DNA from: Candidatus Nitrospira nitrosa | GTDB lineage: Bacteria; Nitrospirota; Nitrospiria; Nitrospirales; Nitrospiraceae | Assembly (NCBI RefSeq): GCF_001458735.1 | Contig: NZ_CZQA01000001.1 | Location: 310,001-374,000 of the forward strand | DNA: 64,000 bases | Direction of reading: 5' to 3' | Part shown: piece after piece, positions 48,639 through 59,617 of the stretch | How positions within the stretch are numbered: position 1 is the stretch's first letter | Layout of the letters: each line of letters starts with the position of its first letter | The notes under the pieces: model-generated | Databases searched by the model: none | Seen by the model: the letters and a program-made list of their open reading frames with translations, nothing else | What the model was told of the DNA's origin: nothing | Made by a program: the position numbers and the translations under genes

Positions 48639-49340
48639 TTACGCGAAGACCCGTGATAACCCTTTTTCATCGACGATGGTAATGGTACGACCATCGAGCC
48701 GAACCAGACCGTCGTCACGGAATTGTCCCAGGGTACTACTCACCGTTTCGCGACTGCAGCCGATCAGGTTTGCCATCTCCTGGTGGGTCAACTTGGCCTT
48801 CAGGCGTATGCCGGTGGCCTCTTTCACGCCGTCGCTCTTGCTGAGTTCGACAAGCAGATGAGCCAAACGCGCCGGCACGTCACGAAAAACGAGATCTTCG
48901 ACGCGGCTCTGGATTTTCCTCAGCCGTAGGCCGATGAGCTTGGTGAGCTTCACTGTCACGTTCGGATGCATCGCGAGATACTGATCGAAGTCTTTTCGAG
49001 GGATCACACAGATCAGTGTGTCATCGAGCGTCTCCGCAGATGTCGAGCGAGGAGCGTCTTCCAACACCTCCAGCTCACCGAACACTTCGCCCGGCTCCAG
49101 GATGTCGAATGTGACCTCTTTGCCGCTGGGCGCGCTATTGGCAATTTTGACACGCCCTTTTTTCAGAAGGTATACGTTGCTGCTTGGATCACCGGGAAGG
49201 TAGAGAGGCTGGCGCTTTTTGACCTCTTCCATGCGTGTAATCTTCTCCATTTCCTGCATTTCAGATGGAGAGATCCCGTCGAACAAGCGAATATGCTTGA
49301 GGTACCACAGCTTATTCGTGGAGGAAGAAGGCTGTTCCAT
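48639..49340 (-). CDS. Crp/Fnr family transcription regulator (CRP-like recognition helix)
   Basis: 233 aa. Cyclic-nucleotide-binding domain with FGELEVLEDAPRSTSAETL (Gly-Glu-Leu and Arg-Ser/Thr positions of the CRP phosphate-binding cassette retained), a dimer helix (VKLTKLIGLRLRKIQSR), and an HTH THQEMANLIGCSRETVSSTLGQF. The recognition helix has the Arg-Glu pair that E. coli CRP uses to read TGTGA. No N-terminal Cys cluster, so not an oxygen-sensing Fnr. AGGAG precedes ATG 49340 (GTG 49343 is alternative). Four matching operators lie within 8 kb. Confidence 0.9.
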   Translation of the reverse strand: MEQPSSSTNKLWYLKHIRLFDGISPSEMQEMEKITRMEEVKKRQPLYLPGDPSSNVYLLKKGRVKIANSAPSGKEVTFDILEPGEVFGELEVLEDAPRSTSAETLDDTLICVIPRKDFDQYLAMHPNVTVKLTKLIGLRLRKIQSRVEDLVFRDVPARLAHLLVELSKSDGVKEATGIRLKAKLTHQEMANLIGCSRETVSSTLGQFRDDGLVRLDGRTITIVDEKGLSRVFA

Positions 49341-49529
49341 CACATCTCCTGTCGGTTCAGAACGTCAATCTAGAGATTTCTCCCTTATAAGGCAATAGAT
49401 CGCCTGATGGGAGGTTCTTGCAGTTGGACGGTCTTTCCCAAGCGGGCGCTGTCATCTCACCGACATATCCGTGAAATAACTCCAAAATCACGGTTGGTTA
49501 TAGGTTTTTCCTCCTGGCTGGCTTCTAAC

Positions 49530-52074: not shown

Positions 52075-52130
52075 CGCGGCGCATCATGAACAACAATGTT
52101 TCACCTCTTCACTTGAAAAGGATCCAACCC

Positions 52131-52901
52131 ATGACAGCGTCTCATTCTTCCATGATCGTCGGTCTCGCATCGTGCCTGTTGGTCGGAATCATCCTCGGAG
52201 ATCCGGCCCGGCTCCAAGCCGGATCTCCTCCCACCATCGAAGTCGGCGCCTTTTCGACCGCTGCGCCGGATGGACCATGGCCGGACGGCTGGAAGCCGCT
52301 CACGTTCCAAAAAATTGCTCAGCATACGACGTACCAGCTCGTGAAAGACGGTGATCGCGTGGTCGTCAAGGCCGCCAGTCAGGCCTCCTCGTCCGGATAT
52401 ACAAAAGAAATCCTGATCGATCCGAAGGAATACCCCATCATCCAATGGCAGTGGAAAGTTTCCAATATCCTAAAAGCCGGCAACGTGGCAAAAAAAGACG
52501 GCGATGATTACCCGGCCCGCATCTACGTCACCTTCCAATACGACAGTGCGAAAGTCGGCCTCTTCGGCAAGGCGAAGTACGAAGCGGCCAAGCTGATCTA
52601 TGGGCGCTATCCACCGCTCGGCGCGCTCAATTATATCTGGGAAAGTCGGGCCCCGGTGGGAACGGCGGTGCCCAACCCCTACACTGAACAGGTACACATG
52701 ATTGTCGTGGAAAGCGGACCAGCCAAGCTGAACACCTGGATGACGGAAGAGCGCAACGTCTATGAAGACTACAAGCTCGCGTTTGGGGAAGAGCCGCCCA
52801 TGATCTCCGGGATCGCCATCATGACGGATACCGACAACACCGGCGAGTCGGCCACCGCTTATTACGGGGATATCATACTCAAGAAGCAAACCAGACCCTG
52901 A
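52131..52901 (+). CDS. DUF3047 exported protein (256 aa)
   Basis: AAAAGGATCC before ATG 52131; signal peptide ending near LQAGS. The body follows DUF3047: WPDGWKPLTFQKI, VVKAASQASSSGY, PIIQWQWKVSNI, DDYPARIYVTF, NYIWES, TDTDNTGESATAYYGDI. A periplasmic jelly-roll-like beta-sandwich of unknown role. Ends convergent to the bufferin cluster. Confidence 0.88.
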   Translation: MTASHSSMIVGLASCLLVGIILGDPARLQAGSPPTIEVGAFSTAAPDGPWPDGWKPLTFQKIAQHTTYQLVKDGDRVVVKAASQASSSGYTKEILIDPKEYPIIQWQWKVSNILKAGNVAKKDGDDYPARIYVTFQYDSAKVGLFGKAKYEAAKLIYGRYPPLGALNYIWESRAPVGTAVPNPYTEQVHMIVVESGPAKLNTWMTEERNVYEDYKLAFGEEPPMISGIAIMTDTDNTGESATAYYGDIILKKQTRP

Positions 52902-52993
52902 CTCGAATCTGCGTTTTATCGTTCCTCCTGCGGTGAGCCCTCGCCAGAGTCATGATCGGAACTCCTTCGCCCACCGTATGTACCTGCTCTCCC

Positions 52994-53527
52994 CTACCTT
53001 CCGCCAAGGACAGGATGTGAGGCCCCATCTCCCTCGGCAATGCGTGTCGAGTGCCTTCGTCGAATCAGATACTCCGCAAGGGAATCGGCCGATAAGCGGC
53101 CAGACCCGTGCAGGACGAAATACAGGAACAACACCCCCACATAGAACGCTTCTTGGAGCGCGGCTTCGGATACCTGTCCATACGAGATCGAGGCGACGAT
53201 GTTGAGGCCGAACAGCGCCAGGGCCGCCCACCGGCCCGCCAGGCCGACTGCCAACAGGCACGATCCGCCTAATTCAACCGCCGTCGTTACGTAAGCGGCC
53301 ATCTCCGGCGGCAGCAGCGGCACATCGTAGACCATGGTGAAGAGCATCACTGTCGACATCCAACTGGAGAGTTTGACCATCCCGCCTTTCCAAAAGATAT
53401 GCGCCAGATACAGACGCACGGATAGGTCGAACAGCGGAATCAAGGCCTCCAGCCCCCAGACCAATCGGTGGTATATGGGAATGACCCGATCGAGGGCGCG
53501 AGTCAACAAGCCGGTGCCGCGTGTCAT
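52994..53527 (-). CDS. DoxX family membrane protein of bufferin cluster (BufD/GigT-like)
   Basis: 177 aa, four helices, DoxX signature (DLSVRLYLAHIFWKGGMVKL..., ELGGSCLLAVGLAGRWAALAL). Its start overlaps the DUF2063 stop (ATGA). In gig/bufferin operons DoxX is the last gene, as here. Cytoplasmic membrane; thought to support maturation or redox steps of the peptide, role not proven. Confidence 0.87.
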   Translation of the reverse strand: MTRGTGLLTRALDRVIPIYHRLVWGLEALIPLFDLSVRLYLAHIFWKGGMVKLSSWMSTVMLFTMVYDVPLLPPEMAAYVTTAVELGGSCLLAVGLAGRWAALALFGLNIVASISYGQVSEAALQEAFYVGVLFLYFVLHGSGRLSADSLAEYLIRRRHSTRIAEGDGASHPVLGGR

Positions 53528-54297
53528 GTGCGCCCCTCCGTGGAGACCCCCCTGAGCAGGTTCAACTCTAGAATGGAGGCCAAAAACCTGGAGAAATCGA
53601 ACTCGGAATCGTATTCCATGGCGATCTGCTCCACTTCAGCGACCGACTTCCGGTCGGCCATGGCGTCCAGCAATCGGAAGTCGAGCGCCGCGAGAGCGGT
53701 CACGTGAATATTCCCTCTGGCTCTTGTGACGACCACGTCGGTCTCCTCATCTGGGAGTGGCCGATCAGCGACCATCGTGGTGGGATCGTCCGATTGCAGT
53801 GCATGCCATAGGTGATGGACCGGCATGGACAAGCGTACCAGTCGCACGGCCGTGTTGAGATGAAACGTTACGCGTGACGGATCGGCCGATGCCACCGCGC
53901 TGAGTTGGTCGGGGACGAGCGGCGGCGAGTCGGAAGCCTGATACACCTCGTGGCAGGCCCACTCCAATCGGGCGAGTTCAATGAGCAGACGTGGACTTCC
54001 GAGTTGAAAGAGGAACAGCGGAAGATGCCGCCCATACGCGAACAGATCGCCGCTCGTCGAGGGAAACCGCTTCAGATAGCCGCGTGCGAACACTTTGAAA
54101 TAGCGATCACCGACCAACCGATGGAGGACTGGATACGTAATCGTCAGTGCCTGCACGTAGTTGTTTCGAATCAATCGACGGTAGAGGGCTAAACTTCGCC
54201 ACGAGGACCCAGCCTGTATCGACGTGATGGTCGGCAAGCTTTTCCCTTCAACAATGGCTGCGGCGAACGCACTCTGTAACTCATGCAGTCGTGGCAT
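53524..54297 (-). CDS. DUF2063 MNIO-partner protein (BufC/GigB-like), 257 aa
   Basis: Opens with MPRLHELQSAFAAAI and contains YRRLIRNNYVQALTITYPVLHRLVGDRYF, the typical DUF2063 'putative DNA-binding' N-terminal domain, followed by a C-terminal alpha/beta domain with a winged-helix-like end (EVEQIAMEYDSEFDFSRFLASILELNLLRG). Known work on MNIO RiPPs treats this protein as the partner that presents precursor to the MNIO enzyme; the DNA-binding label is historical. Overlaps DUF692 by 17 bases and DoxX by 4. Confidence 0.88.
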   Translation of the reverse strand: MPRLHELQSAFAAAIVEGKSLPTITSIQAGSSWRSLALYRRLIRNNYVQALTITYPVLHRLVGDRYFKVFARGYLKRFPSTSGDLFAYGRHLPLFLFQLGSPRLLIELARLEWACHEVYQASDSPPLVPDQLSAVASADPSRVTFHLNTAVRLVRLSMPVHHLWHALQSDDPTTMVADRPLPDEETDVVVTRARGNIHVTALAALDFRLLDAMADRKSVAEVEQIAMEYDSEFDFSRFLASILELNLLRGVSTEGRT

Positions 54298-55126
54298 AAC
54301 AGGCTCCAAGAAGGACATCGGCCTGCGAGGCTTGTTCGAGCAGCACAGGCAACGGCGGCAAGTTCGTATCCCATTCGATGAGTGTCGGCCTCGGGCCGAA
54401 GTGGTGGAGCACCCACTGATACAGACTCCACACTTCCGGATAGACCGCTTGCCCATGGGTATCGACCAGCCATCTTCCGACATGATCGAAACCCGCCAGA
54501 TGGATCTCCCAAACGGCATCGGGTGGAATAGCCTCGAGAAACTTCACGGGGTCCAGGTGGAAATTCACGGCATTGACGTAGAGATTATTGAGATCCAGCA
54601 GAATCCCGCAGCCGGTTCGCCGGATGACTGCGGCCATGAAGTCACCCTCCGGAATGCTGGAGTCTCGCCAAGTCAGGTACCGGGTGATATTTTCGATCAG
54701 TATCGGCCGTTGTAAGACAGTCTGGACTTCATCGATTCTGGCGCAGATGTGACTCAAGCTTTCTTCCGTATACGGAAGCGGCAAGAGATCATTGAAGAAG
54801 CGCCCATCGACGGAACTCCAAGATAGGTGCTCCGATACGAACGACGGCTCGAAGCGGTCGATCACGCCTTTGAGTTTAGCGAGATGAGCCCGATTCAGCG
54901 GATCGATGGCGCCTAACGAGAGCCCGACTCCATGAAAGCTCAAGGGATAACCGGCTCTGATCCGCTCCAGGATGCGGAGCGGCGCGCCCCCTTCTCCGAA
55001 GTAGTTCTCCGGATGAGCTTCCATCCAGGCGACGGGAGGCGGCTCCTCCAGAATCTCACGATAATGTTGTGACCGCAGTCCGATCCCGGCCTGAGCCGGG
55101 ATCGGAGTTGAACTATACACAGACAT
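54281..55126 (-). CDS. DUF692 multinuclear non-haem iron oxidase (MNIO; BufB/GigA-like), 281 aa
   Basis: TIM-barrel MNIO with the metal residues in place: E36/HPENYF, H65 (SFHGVGLS), H100 (SEHLSW), E145 (IENITRY), N180/N181 (LDLNNLYVNA), H209 (EIHLAGF), D222-x-H224 (VDTHG), E251 (IEWD). MNIO enzymes oxidise Cys or other residues of RiPP precursors; with DUF2282 precursors they make thiooxazole-type bufferins that bind copper. Precursor genes lie just upstream on the same strand, 28 bases away. Confidence 0.92.
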   Translation of the reverse strand: MSVYSSTPIPAQAGIGLRSQHYREILEEPPPVAWMEAHPENYFGEGGAPLRILERIRAGYPLSFHGVGLSLGAIDPLNRAHLAKLKGVIDRFEPSFVSEHLSWSSVDGRFFNDLLPLPYTEESLSHICARIDEVQTVLQRPILIENITRYLTWRDSSIPEGDFMAAVIRRTGCGILLDLNNLYVNAVNFHLDPVKFLEAIPPDAVWEIHLAGFDHVGRWLVDTHGQAVYPEVWSLYQWVLHHFGPRPTLIEWDTNLPPLPVLLEQASQADVLLGACYATTA

Positions 55127-55154
55127 CGATAGGTGACCTACATCCTCTTCAGGC

Positions 55155-55475
55155 TCATTTCTTTTCCTTTATCTTCGCCAGGTCCTCTTTCGTAGCGGCC
55201 AGGACGACACCATTCGCGATTTTTTCGCACAGCCCTTTTGGCAAGAAAACATAGGAATCGGCCGCTCCGTCGGTCTTGGACATACCCGCACAAGCATGCG
55301 GACTGGCTTTAGTGGCACAGTCATTCATCCCGGCCTTGGCGACGCCGCCACAGGCCTCCCAGCCTACAGGTAGTTCCGGAACCTTAGCGGCCGATGCCGA
55401 TTGGGCTCCTGCCAAGCTCAATGCGACGAGTAGCGTGGAATGGACGATGGCGCTTTTCTTGATCTTGACGTTCAT
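55155..55475 (-). CDS. Bufferin-type precursor peptide 2 (DUF2282; BufA1/GigP-like), 106 aa
   Basis: AAGGGAG before ATG 55475. Sec signal peptide (IVHSTLLVALSLAGAQSASA), then the DUF2282 core with four Cys at 42, 53, 62 and 83: EACGGVAKAGMNDC, HACAG, LPKGLC. In this family the Cys are substrates of the DUF692 enzyme, and the mature exported peptide binds copper or other soft metals. After the last Cys it has a 23-residue Lys-rich tail (ATKEDLAKIKEKK) that typical bufferins lack. Paralogue of the next gene. Confidence 0.9.
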   Translation of the reverse strand: MNVKIKKSAIVHSTLLVALSLAGAQSASAAKVPELPVGWEACGGVAKAGMNDCATKASPHACAGMSKTDGAADSYVFLPKGLCEKIANGVVLAATKEDLAKIKEKK

Positions 55476-55667
55476 TGAAAATCTCCCTTTCGGACATATC
55501 GTTGCTGAGATTCGCTCTGATGGCACACCGCTCGCCGGCGAGTGCTGGTTCCCTGCGTGACTCCATGCTAGACACCTCTCTCGGCTCCCAGGAAACCACG
55601 CCCCGGTCAAGAAACATACCGGGTTCGCGGTGAAATGCGTAACGGCGAACAGAGATCGATCGCCGTC

Positions 55668-56003
55668 CTACATTTTTTTCATCTGCATCTGTTTCATCTT
55701 TTCGAGATCGTCTTTCGTGATGGACAGCACCGTGCCTTTGGCGATCTTGGTGCACAACCCATTCGGCAAGAAGACATACGAATCGGGCTCGTTGTCACCT
55801 TTTGCCATGCCCGCACAAGCATGAAGACTGGTTCTGACAGCACAGTCGTTCATCCCAGCCTTGGCCACCCCTCCGCAGGCTTCCCAGCCGTTGGGAAGTG
55901 TCGGGGCTTTTGGTTCGGCCCCTACGGTCTGTGCCCCTACCACACTCAGGGCAACGAGTAGTGCGGATTGGATCATGGCTGTTTTCTTCTTGTTCATGTT
56001 CAT
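55668..56003 (-). CDS. Bufferin-type precursor peptide 1 (DUF2282; BufA1/GigP-like), 111 aa
   Basis: AAAAGGAG before ATG 56003. Signal peptide (MIQSALLVALSVVGAQTVGA), four Cys at 43, 54, 63 and 84 in EACGGVAKAGMNDC, HACAG and LPNGLC. C-terminal tail DDLEKMKQMQMKKM is rich in Met and Lys; Met could add copper ligands (inference). Strong similarity to precursor 2 shows tandem duplication. A 192-base spacer separates the two, so their dosage may differ. First gene of the minus-strand cluster. Confidence 0.9.
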   Translation of the reverse strand: MNMNKKKTAMIQSALLVALSVVGAQTVGAEPKAPTLPNGWEACGGVAKAGMNDCAVRTSLHACAGMAKGDNEPDSYVFLPNGLCTKIAKGTVLSITKDDLEKMKQMQMKKM

Positions 56004-56187
56004 GCGTCGCTCCTTTTATAAGCTATGAAGTATGTACTATCTCTCTGGTTGCGGGACCGGGATCACGACAGGTGTCTCAGCAGGCCTCCTTTCTTTCAGA
56101 TCATGGGAACTCGACGCTCCCATGTGGACAGGTCCGTGCGGGTCCCAGCACGACCAGCTCAGTCTACTCACAGGAACAAACCCGTAC

Positions 56188-56203
56188 TGTGAAGCAGCTT
56201 ACA
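56188..56203 (+). promoter_or_regulatory. CRP-type operator (TGTGA-N6-TTACA)
   Basis: CTGTGA-AGCAGC-TTACA lies between the first bufferin precursor (starting at 56003, minus) and the hydroxylase pseudogene (plus). TATGGT at 56226-56231 fits as a class II -10 for the plus strand. It may now serve mainly a dead gene, or act on the bufferin side. Confidence 0.6.
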
Positions 56204-56229
56204 ATTCCTGAAAAGAATCGAGGGATATG

Positions 56230-56770
56230 GTTCCGGTTGCCAGAATCCATTCTACGTTTCGTGCCTCTGACGCTCGGGAACAGGAGTATGATCGCGTTGT
56301 CTACGGTCTATGATGGGAAAGAGGTCGGTCGTTGGATCGTATTTGTCCATTCTCGGGGTGATGGACCAGAACCGTGGCTGGGGACTCTTGAACTGGGTCG
56401 AAGGGCCAGCCTAGCTCGAAATCGCCTTGGCAGTTATCACCCTCGATTTCATCACCTATTGGCAGCATTCGGGGTGCGTTTTCACCCGGTGGAGATCGTC
56501 ATTTCAACCGCGGTGAAGGCCCTGTCGATCCTTGTGCTGGGCATGGCTCCGCTGGCGGTCGTGATCTTCGAGATCGTCCTCAACCGTACGGCCCTCTTCA
56601 ACCACGGCAATGTTCGGATACCTGCCTCCTTTGATCGGGTGCTCCGGTGGGTCATCGTCACGACGGACATGCATCGGATTCACCATTCGACGGATGTGCA
56701 GGAAACCAACAGCAACTACGGATTCAACGGGCCCTGGTGGGATCGCCCGTTCGGCACCTATTGCCCCTAA
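56230..56770 (+). pseudogene. Sterol desaturase/fatty-acid hydroxylase family pseudogene
   Basis: Family segments appear in two frames. The N-terminal half reads in frame from ~56333: GWGLLNWVEGPA, then TAG (56409-56411, where relatives have Trp), then LEIALAVITLDFITYWQH. After 56465 homology jumps to another frame (FHPVEIVIS...FNHGNVRIP...HRIHHSTDVQETNSNYG). The piece that should carry the first two His boxes is missing. So there is a nonsense codon, an internal deletion of roughly 90 bases and a frameshift. The final His motif HRIHHS is intact. Confidence 0.75.
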
Positions 56771-56912
56771 CCTGCCTTGGGGCAGACCGGCATGAAGATC
56801 GGCCTTGAACACCTCGGTCCGCCGGTCTGCCTGAACCTCTTCATGAGGCTCCGCTTCCCTTTCGTGATGCAGCTGGGACGGTACACAAGCCGCACACAAT
56901 CGTGAACGCGGT

Positions 56913-57221
56913 TCAGACCCCCTTCAAGGCGTGTGTGCCGTGTGTAATGGCTGCACCCGCGCGTAATGCTGCAGCGACCATCACGACTTCGGAGATTTCT
57001 TGCTCAGAAGCACCCACTTCTCGTGCTTTGTTCGAGTGAATGTCAATGCAGTACGGACATTGAGTCGTCAACGCGACAGCAATAGCCATCAGTTCCTTAT
57101 ACTTGTGTGGAATCACGCCGCCGGACAACGCAGCCTTGTCGAAAGCTGCAAAGGCTTTCATGGCTTCGGGGGTATTGGCTTCTAGTTCCTTGAGCTTGCT
57201 CAAATTCTTCCTCTCGTACAT
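56913..57221 (-). CDS. AhpD-like carboxymuconolactone decarboxylase family protein, 102 aa
   Basis: AAGGAGGT before ATG 57221. Family core HKYKELMAIAVALTTQCPYCIDIHSNKAREVGAS with the CxxC (CPYC) and the following His of AhpD-type proteins, then EISEVVMVAAALRAGAAITHG. Probably a homotrimeric thiol peroxidase/disulfide reductase. Next to an SDR gene, 102 bases apart, in the same direction. Confidence 0.9.
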   Translation of the reverse strand: MYERKNLSKLKELEANTPEAMKAFAAFDKAALSGGVIPHKYKELMAIAVALTTQCPYCIDIHSNKAREVGASEQEISEVVMVAAALRAGAAITHGTHALKGV

Positions 57222-58799: not shown

Positions 58800-59480
58800 T
58801 TAAGAATCGATCAGTTTCGCAATCTCTTCGAACCCGCGCACGCACACATAGTCACGGGTGTATGCCAGCACTCCCTTGTCACGGAGCCGGTTGAGAATCG
58901 TGCTGACCACCGGCCTGGTTGCGCCGACAAGGTCGGCCAACTCCTGTTGGGTGAGGCGGAGGTGTTCTCCGAAGCCATGATCGCAGCGAGCGGCGAACCC
59001 GCCTGACAACTCGCGAAAGGTTTCGGCGAGCCGTGCCTCGATTCGTTTGAACGCGAAACTTTCGAGCCGGCGTTCCATCCGGCGCTGGCGCTGGGCAAGC
59101 AGCGATACACATTCCAAGGCAACGGCGGGATGGTGCAGCAACAGGCGCCGAAACTCATCGTTCGGGGTTTGCCATATCGAAACAGCTCCGATCGCGCTCG
59201 CCGTGTCTTCGGTTTCAGCGGCACCACTCAGCGCTGGGCCGAAGAATTCCCCCGTTCTCAACATCGCCGTGGTGAGCGCTGTTCCGTCCGAGTTGACCCT
59301 CGCGAGAGCGACTTGACCGTTGAGCACGCAAAAGATCGCACGCGTGGGATCGCCCAGCCGATAGATTGTGCCACGGTGCCGGATCGCCACAATCCGAGCC
59401 GTCGGGCAGTCACGGCGAAGATCCTCAGGTGGAATCCCTGCTAAAAGCGGGCACCCCTTCAATTCATTTGGCTTGCTCAT
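58800..59480 (-). CDS. Second Crp/Fnr family regulator, divergent recognition helix
   Basis: 226 aa (ATG 59480; GTG 59492 alternative). Cyclic-nucleotide-type sensor domain without the CRP phosphate-cassette residues, and a C-terminal HTH TQQELADLVGATRPVVSTILNRL. The recognition helix has Arg-Pro where CRP has Arg-Glu, so it should read a different DNA motif from the regulator at 48639. Two N-terminal Cys (KGCPLL, RDCPTA) do not make an Fnr cluster set. Lies within the run of genes below the sigma-54 promoter. Confidence 0.88.
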   Translation of the reverse strand: MSKPNELKGCPLLAGIPPEDLRRDCPTARIVAIRHRGTIYRLGDPTRAIFCVLNGQVALARVNSDGTALTTAMLRTGEFFGPALSGAAETEDTASAIGAVSIWQTPNDEFRRLLLHHPAVALECVSLLAQRQRRMERRLESFAFKRIEARLAETFRELSGGFAARCDHGFGEHLRLTQQELADLVGATRPVVSTILNRLRDKGVLAYTRDYVCVRGFEEIAKLIDS

Positions 59481-59617
59481 CTGTCTTGTCACCTGTCCCT
59501 CATGCTTTCCGTTGCCGTTCGCGAGTTTCGTTAATGAGTGAACAGCTTAATCCCTACCTCAAAATTGCTTCAAGAGCATGCTGATGCAAGCGAGTTGATC
59601 GCTGCCATGGAGTGATT

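Follow-up and report, generated by a model that had tools for sequence, protein, structure and literature searches.

The locus considered here raises the question of whether a Nitrospira carries a complete pathway for bufferins, copper-buffering ribosomally synthesized and post-translationally modified peptides (RiPPs), and of what two precursor genes would do in such a pathway. It lies in a window of 64,000 nucleotides (64 kb), which is the whole stretch of DNA that was analyzed, from Candidatus Nitrospira nitrosa (NZ_CZQA01000001.1, positions 310,001 to 374,000; coordinates below are those of the window unless a locus is named). By reading of the open reading frames (ORFs), five genes occupy the minus strand between 52994 and 56003 in the transcription order bufA1, bufA2, bufB, bufC, and doxX. 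We put at roughly 85% the probability that they form a Buf1 bufferin operon making periplasmic thiooxazole copper chelators, with both precursors served by one enzyme pair; this reading draws on sequence comparison and on analogy with characterized systems.

Profile searches showed that both precursors matched DUF2282 and that the other three proteins matched the DUF692-type (MbnB_TglH_ChrH), DUF2063, and DoxX models, all above the Pfam cut-offs of 22.4, 25, 27.2, and 23.6 bits, respectively (Table 1). An earlier, sequence-only reading had proposed a bufferin cluster with two precursors, in the order precursor-MNIO-DUF2063-DoxX, in a Nitrospirota-like host, and this proposal was supported by the Pfam and NCBIfam matches, the nearest metagenome-assembled genomes (MAGs), and the BufB tree; the five ORFs, with their common strand, order, and span, likewise agreed with the ORF list. 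The 4-base overlap that it described between the DUF2063 and DoxX genes (53524-53527) is exact, and the 17-base overlap between the DUF692 and DUF2063 genes (54281-54297) holds provided that translation of bufC begins MPRLHELQ. A crude gene caller chose an ATG of this type in the bufC homologue of one related locus (L066) and, in the window, an ATG 21 bases further upstream (54318). For bufA2, the start at 55475 (MNVKIKK..., 106 residues) is more likely than that at 55505 (116 residues), since it aligns with the bufA1 start and sits after AAAGGGAG. With this start, gaps of 192 nucleotides (nt) between bufA1 and bufA2 and 28 nt between bufA2 and bufB were obtained; the bufA-bufB gap in the remaining Nitrospirota loci is mostly 11 nt. 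Searches for consensus promoters and terminators returned 1 and 4 sites against 1.6 and 2.4 in shuffled sequence, within one standard deviation, and a weak terminator-like site lies just beyond doxX.

BufB passed the NCBI bufferin-maturase model, whose cut-off is 310 bits, and aligned with PDB entry 3BWW at an E-value of 2.9e-45. In an alignment of 38 Nitrospirota and 30 Pseudomonadota BufB sequences, the ligand-type residues H65, H100, E145, N181, H209, D222, H224, E251, and D253 were invariant in 68/68, which bore out the expected MNIO metal ligands as far as an alignment allows. N181 lies within an LDLNN motif and D222 and H224 within VDTHG; the residues other than these three are presumably metal ligands of the MNIO family. 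By motif and offset, N181, D222, and H224 fit N175, D242, and H244 of HvfB, the replacement of which abolishes HvfB activity according to the text of PMC13419390. D253 is a candidate counterpart of Asp249 of FonB, the proposed catalytic base in the text of PMC13097082. The DUF2063 (PME) gene directly follows the MNIO gene. Plasmid relatives of BufB (354 records) were all below 60% identity, the best at 57%, and were not used further.

The two precursors share the DUF2282 domain and four Cys residues (Pfam and alignment), at positions 43, 54, 63, and 84 in BufA1. In both, the four Cys, already noted in the sequence-only reading, lie downstream of an N terminus that appeared signal-like by eye, with a Lys-rich start, a hydrophobic stretch, and an AxA-like site. 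From these features and from what is carried over from characterized bufferins and their relatives, namely the thiooxazole, the disulfide, copper, the di-iron centre, and the need for a partner protein, the following pathway can be proposed. BufA1 and BufA2 would be made with Sec-type signal peptides and presented in the cytoplasm by BufC to BufB, whose mixed-valent di-iron centre would convert the two central Cys of each precursor to 5-thiooxazoles, the outer two forming a disulfide. The peptides would then be exported to the periplasm, where they would bind and buffer excess copper, while DoxX may support copper buffering, or a linked redox or thiol stress, at the inner membrane. Both precursors are most likely modified by the one BufB-BufC pair, and BufA1 may take up further Cu(I) through a Met-rich tail that BufA2 does not have.

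In Nitrospirota, the bufferin cluster is an accessory with a patchy distribution. Of 395 genomes sampled across the phylum, 26 had a DUF2282 match, as did 11/79 in the genus, and all matches from these two samples make up the 34 Nitrospirota loci compared here. BufB scored above its cut-off in 30/395 Nitrospirota genomes, as against 42/200 genomes sampled from the phylum to which Aeromonas diversa belongs. The set of bufA, bufB, bufC, and doxX was complete in 31 of the 34 Buf1 loci; L056 and L086 are cut short by the end of their contigs, and no doxX match was obtained in L042. The nearest named loci came from the Nitrospira MAGs UBA5698 (BufB identity 86 and 85%) and ACE_NIT9 (83 and 81%). 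Phylogenetic analysis, made with a quick method on 68 sequences without bootstrap and with matches below 250 bits (L121, L122) left out, showed that the 34 Nitrospirota Buf1 BufB proteins formed one clade inside the Buf1-type enzymes, with a support of 100 in the Shimodaira-Hasegawa-like approximate likelihood ratio test (SH-aLRT) and a stem length of 0.58 changes per column. The clade closest to it consisted of 4 Pseudomonadota rows with DUF2282 precursors (SH-aLRT 88), and four Nitrospirota BufB proteins of another family (f2) formed a separate clade. The simplest reading would be a single entry into Nitrospirota followed by loss or transfer. Matches of any strength to the BufB model occurred in 143/395 genomes, and the weak ones often fall in frames of roughly 500 residues. 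In the same genome, outside the window (contig C1 of G000; L069:2989-4506, minus strand), a 506-residue protein carries a remote DUF692 domain (52.1 bits against a cut-off of 25); this protein is possibly not a RiPP enzyme.

Table 1. Features of the bufferin locus and its surroundings (window coordinates)
Feature	Position	Strand	Description
bufA1	55668..56003	-	Buf1/DUF2282 precursor, 111 aa; Pfam DUF2282 65.5 bits
bufA2	55155..55475	-	Buf1/DUF2282 precursor, 106 aa from likely start; Pfam DUF2282 68.3 bits for the ORF 55155-55505
bufB	54281..55126	-	MNIO (DUF692) maturase; Pfam MbnB_TglH_ChrH 352.1 bits; NF050167 MNIO_BufB 368.9
bufC	53524..54297	-	DUF2063 partner protein (PME-type); Pfam DUF2063 71.3 bits
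doxX	52994..53527	-	DoxX-family membrane protein; Pfam DoxX 53.5 bits
Met-rich end of BufA1	55671..55715	-	last 15 residues, 4 Met
GAAAGGAGG leader element	56085..56093	-	90 nt upstream of bufA1 start
Terminator-like site	52911-52892	-	weak
DUF3047 gene	52086-52901	+	convergent with bufferin operon
Fatty-acid hydroxylase gene, partial	56189-56770	+	profile positions 29-132; adjoins bufA1
Crp-family regulator gene	48639-49343		flanks the region
Crp-family regulator gene	58800-59492		flanks the region

Sequence analysis showed that the Met-rich tail is shared by all complete Nitrospirota precursors besides BufA2 (33/33), each carrying 4-5 Met in the 24-27 residues after the fourth Cys and many terminating in LAKMKEMMMKKM or a near variant. 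The count leaves out L044, whose precursor frame ends before the fourth Cys, and L099, a weak hit with no DUF2282 core, was dropped from the tail comparison as a whole and from the Pseudomonadota leader search below. Precursors and BufB are identical between L046 and L051 and between L058 and L059, and the locus counts are for this reason not independent. Pseudomonadota precursors (n=24) have 0-3 Met in the 11-27 residues past the fourth Cys, while the 23 residues at this place in BufA2 include no Met. Stretches rich in Met commonly serve as Cu(I) sites. The words "methionine" and "Met-rich" are absent from the main text of PMC12452194, and a literature search returned, among the matches listed, no paper joining bufferins and Met-rich tails. 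It is quite possible that nothing sets the locus apart from ordinary bufferin clusters and that its second precursor and Met tail are neutral quirks of the lineage. The patchy presence and the several identical rows suggest an accessory function and fewer independent cases than the counts imply, the Nitrospirota tails, including that of BufA2, are longer than most Pseudomonadota tails, and Met-rich stretches also occur elsewhere, such as before the core in L088 and L096; however, the retention of the tail in every complete precursor besides BufA2, across two families as defined by group code (f1, with L067 in f5), argues against this reading.

A second shared feature was found upstream of bufA. 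GAAAGGAGG, with at most one mismatch, was present 90-119 nt before the bufA start in 32/34 Nitrospirota leaders, the two without it being those of L062 and of the window's bufA2. These leaders belong to 33 bufA genes, with bufA1 of the window among them, and to the window's bufA2, L038 having been dropped for its masked upstream sequence. Exact AAAGGAG occurred in 29/34 leaders against a mean of 0.385 (maximum 3) in 200 order-1 Markov resamples, a non-phylogenetic control that applies to this exact 7-mer and not to the 9-mer with one mismatch. Exact AAAGGAG or AAGGAGG was found more than 45 nt upstream (within 220 nt) in 0/24 Pseudomonadota leaders, where exact 7-mers and simple-rule starts were used, unlike in the Nitrospirota search. 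The single exact copy of GAAAGGAGG in the window is no evidence by itself, since 0.78 copies are expected by chance in 64 kb. GAAAGGAGG matches the anti-Shine-Dalgarno sequence, and it probably resembles the cry3A leader. An RNase J-type STAB-SD role, in which an SD-like sequence well upstream would halt RNase J, appears unlikely, since no match to TIGR00649 (RNase J-type) was found in the same genome at E <= 0.001, while 13/14 control genomes gave a match, 9 of them above the cut-off. STAB-SD elements are described in PMC4113751. A conserved upstream ORF was rejected: a start at +7 with a stop after four codons follows GAAAGGAGG in 13/32 leaders and ATG-TAG in 7 more, but the window leader has neither, and the pattern was not found in the same genome. 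A structured RNA was rejected because Rfam gave no match to E 0.1 in 52800-57000 and RNAalifold on 31 leaders gave no consensus structure, and a promoter of the extracytoplasmic function (ECF) type was considered by eye only.

Both the Met-rich tail and the leader element appear to be new in this analysis, and any function of theirs is hypothetical. Taken further, they would make the Nitrospirota Buf1 proteins a distinct subfamily with two metal sites, a thiooxazole core and a Met-rich Cu(I) tail; in this Nitrospira the work would be divided between two precursors, BufA1 with the tail and BufA2 without it, under one enzyme pair, with expression set by a lineage-specific Shine-Dalgarno-like leader element; we regard this extended scheme as rather doubtful.

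The relation between the two precursors bears on whether both are substrates. BufA1 and BufA2 are identical at 68/106 aligned residues. The nonsynonymous and synonymous divergences (dN and dS) of their genes are 0.24 and 1.35 by NG86 and 0.27 and 0.90 by YN00, giving a dN/dS of about 0.18 to 0.30, and bufA2 is intact and, by these values, evidently under purifying selection. From the same ratios and the identity, the pair looks old and constrained. In the precursor tree, which carries a long-branch warning elsewhere and leaves out L099 and L044, BufA2 branches outside the group of BufA1 and basal to the Nitrospirota precursors, a position that is weakly supported. From this position and the dS of about 0.9-1.3, a recent duplication was rejected. 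It is unlikely that only BufA1 is a substrate of the enzyme and that BufA2 is a paralogue left unmodified or put to another use, such as a disulfide-rich periplasmic peptide. The absence of the Met tail, the altered loop between the central Cys, the basal position, and the leader without the conserved element are consistent with such a paralogue, and unmodified extra precursors are named as an open possibility in the main text of PMC12452194; on the other hand, BufA2 retains its four Cys together with most of the core, its dN/dS is well under 1, and its gene directly precedes bufB. Modification of both precursors by one enzyme pair is the preferred reading. No DUF2282 match other than these two was found in the same genome (E 0.001). 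Tandem precursors are rare in Nitrospirota: two DUF2282 genes in one locus were seen in the window only, with 0/33 in the remaining Nitrospirota loci, some of which have little upstream sequence, and 0/24 in Pseudomonadota loci with a DUF2282 core, where the flank read was mostly about 1.5 kb. Five other sampled genomes (G191, G316, G248, G346, and G392) and G404 each have two DUF2282 genes, but at separate sites. In a related Nitrospira genome with two bufA genes, one of them (L044:826-1215) ends before the fourth Cys, with one in-match TAG.

In the surroundings of the Nitrospirota operons, 17/34 loci have a molybdopterin oxidoreductase gene, which we take to be SoxC-like, downstream of doxX and in the same orientation. 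In the three loci with gene calls read, a cytochrome c-like gene stands behind it (both genes within L066:1919-3722, L052:155-1991, and L058:1876-3682); Pfam confirmed both domains in L066, and two other genes intervene in L052. The pair is not beside the window operon, and a homologue in the same genome is 60% identical and about 222 kb away in the chromosome. Molybdopterin oxidoreductase genes are mentioned for a few EGKCG clusters in the main text of PMC12452194. That the thiooxazole peptide would serve mainly another soft metal (gold or mercury), or sulfur or oxidative stress, is improbable: the oxidoreductase and cytochrome c genes and the gold-induced gig operons, which are bufferin clusters, would agree with it, whereas the window operon has no such pair beside it, the homologue lying about 222 kb away, and the characterized Buf1 binds copper (main text of PMC12452194). 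A DUF3047 gene family occurs in 18/34 loci, with 19/20 of its ORFs on the opposite strand, as in the window. The fatty-acid hydroxylase copy of the window looks decayed, and its homologue in L066 spans profile positions 2-132.

Several observations weigh against the copper-chelator reading. For the Nitrospirota members, metal and chemistry rest on analogy. Sigma factors and NrsF, reported as regulators of Buf1 clusters, had no Pfam match among 20 flanking proteins of the window, and two Crp-family regulators flank the region (Table 1); the neighbourhood thus gives no hint of copper. The BufA2 core has SPHAC where others have LHxC, which makes its modification less certain. AlphaFold drew a helix at residues 97-110 of BufA1 with a mean predicted local distance difference test score (pLDDT) of 51, too weak for interpretation, and a PDB search with BufA1 returned a chance-level match alone (E 0.63). 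BufC and DoxX stay below the cut-offs of HvfC (60.7 against 142 bits) and HvfX (49.6 against 80 bits), the nearest NCBIfam equivalogs, which are modelled on a different cluster type. Besides the missing doxX of L042, bufC of L054 is split into two frames and bufA of L044 stops early, which implies that the cluster decays in places.

Among the known systems, the closest to the window operon is the Buf1 bufferin system of Caulobacter vibrioides (PMC12452194), which, by the main text, has the same Sec-type four-Cys precursor, MNIO, DUF2063, and DoxX proteins in the same order; there the central Cys are modified, the outer Cys form a disulfide, and the product chelates copper. The window differs in its two precursors, Met-rich tail, and Nitrospira host, and in having no sigma factor or NrsF among the flanking proteins. 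The motif at the first Cys also differs, being EACGG in 33/35 Nitrospirota precursors (PCAG in 2) and KCYG, KCFG, or RCYG in the Pseudomonadota rows, which exclude the Caulobacter precursor itself. The gig operon of Cupriavidus metallidurans, gold-induced and a bufferin cluster according to the main text of PMC12452194, is likened to the window cluster by description rather than by sequence. MNIO-PME1 clusters broadly install 5-thiooxazole (text of PMC13097082), and the captophorins described there (oxazolin, Hvf, and fontiphorin, Fon) use the same MNIO-PME1 pair on a repeat EGKCG precursor, in contrast to DUF2282 here. With BufB at 238.6 bits against the HvfB cut-off of 360, and with the HvfC and HvfX scores likewise below theirs, the window cluster appears to fall outside the EGKCG/oxazolin (Hvf) type. 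The f2 clusters of Nitrospirota (L117-L120), from the same order of bacteria as the window, have BufB above the cut-off and BufC; bufB of L117-L119 is preceded by an ORF that is rich in Cys, begins with a lipobox-like sequence, and is not DUF2282, while none was read in L120. Two of these Cys-rich ORFs had no Pfam match, and they look Buf2-like by eye. The earlier expectation that the locus would extend the known range is supported only in part: tandem precursors and an occurrence "in various taxonomic groups" were already reported by Antoine et al. 2025 (main text of PMC12452194), and one-precursor clusters exist in other Nitrospirota genomes. "Nitrospir" is absent from that main text, its taxonomic figures aside, and the literature matches listed included no paper with Nitrospira and DUF692 and none joining bufferins or thiooxazole with Nitrospirota. 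With this locus, a RiPP of the probably copper-buffering type is found in Nitrospira, a group of nitrite oxidizers important for nitrification. The core system has been described before, and the odd parts are the doubled precursor and the Met-rich tail of most Nitrospirota versions; a natural precursor pair with and without this tail is well suited to asking whether two substrates can share one MNIO pair and what function the tail has.

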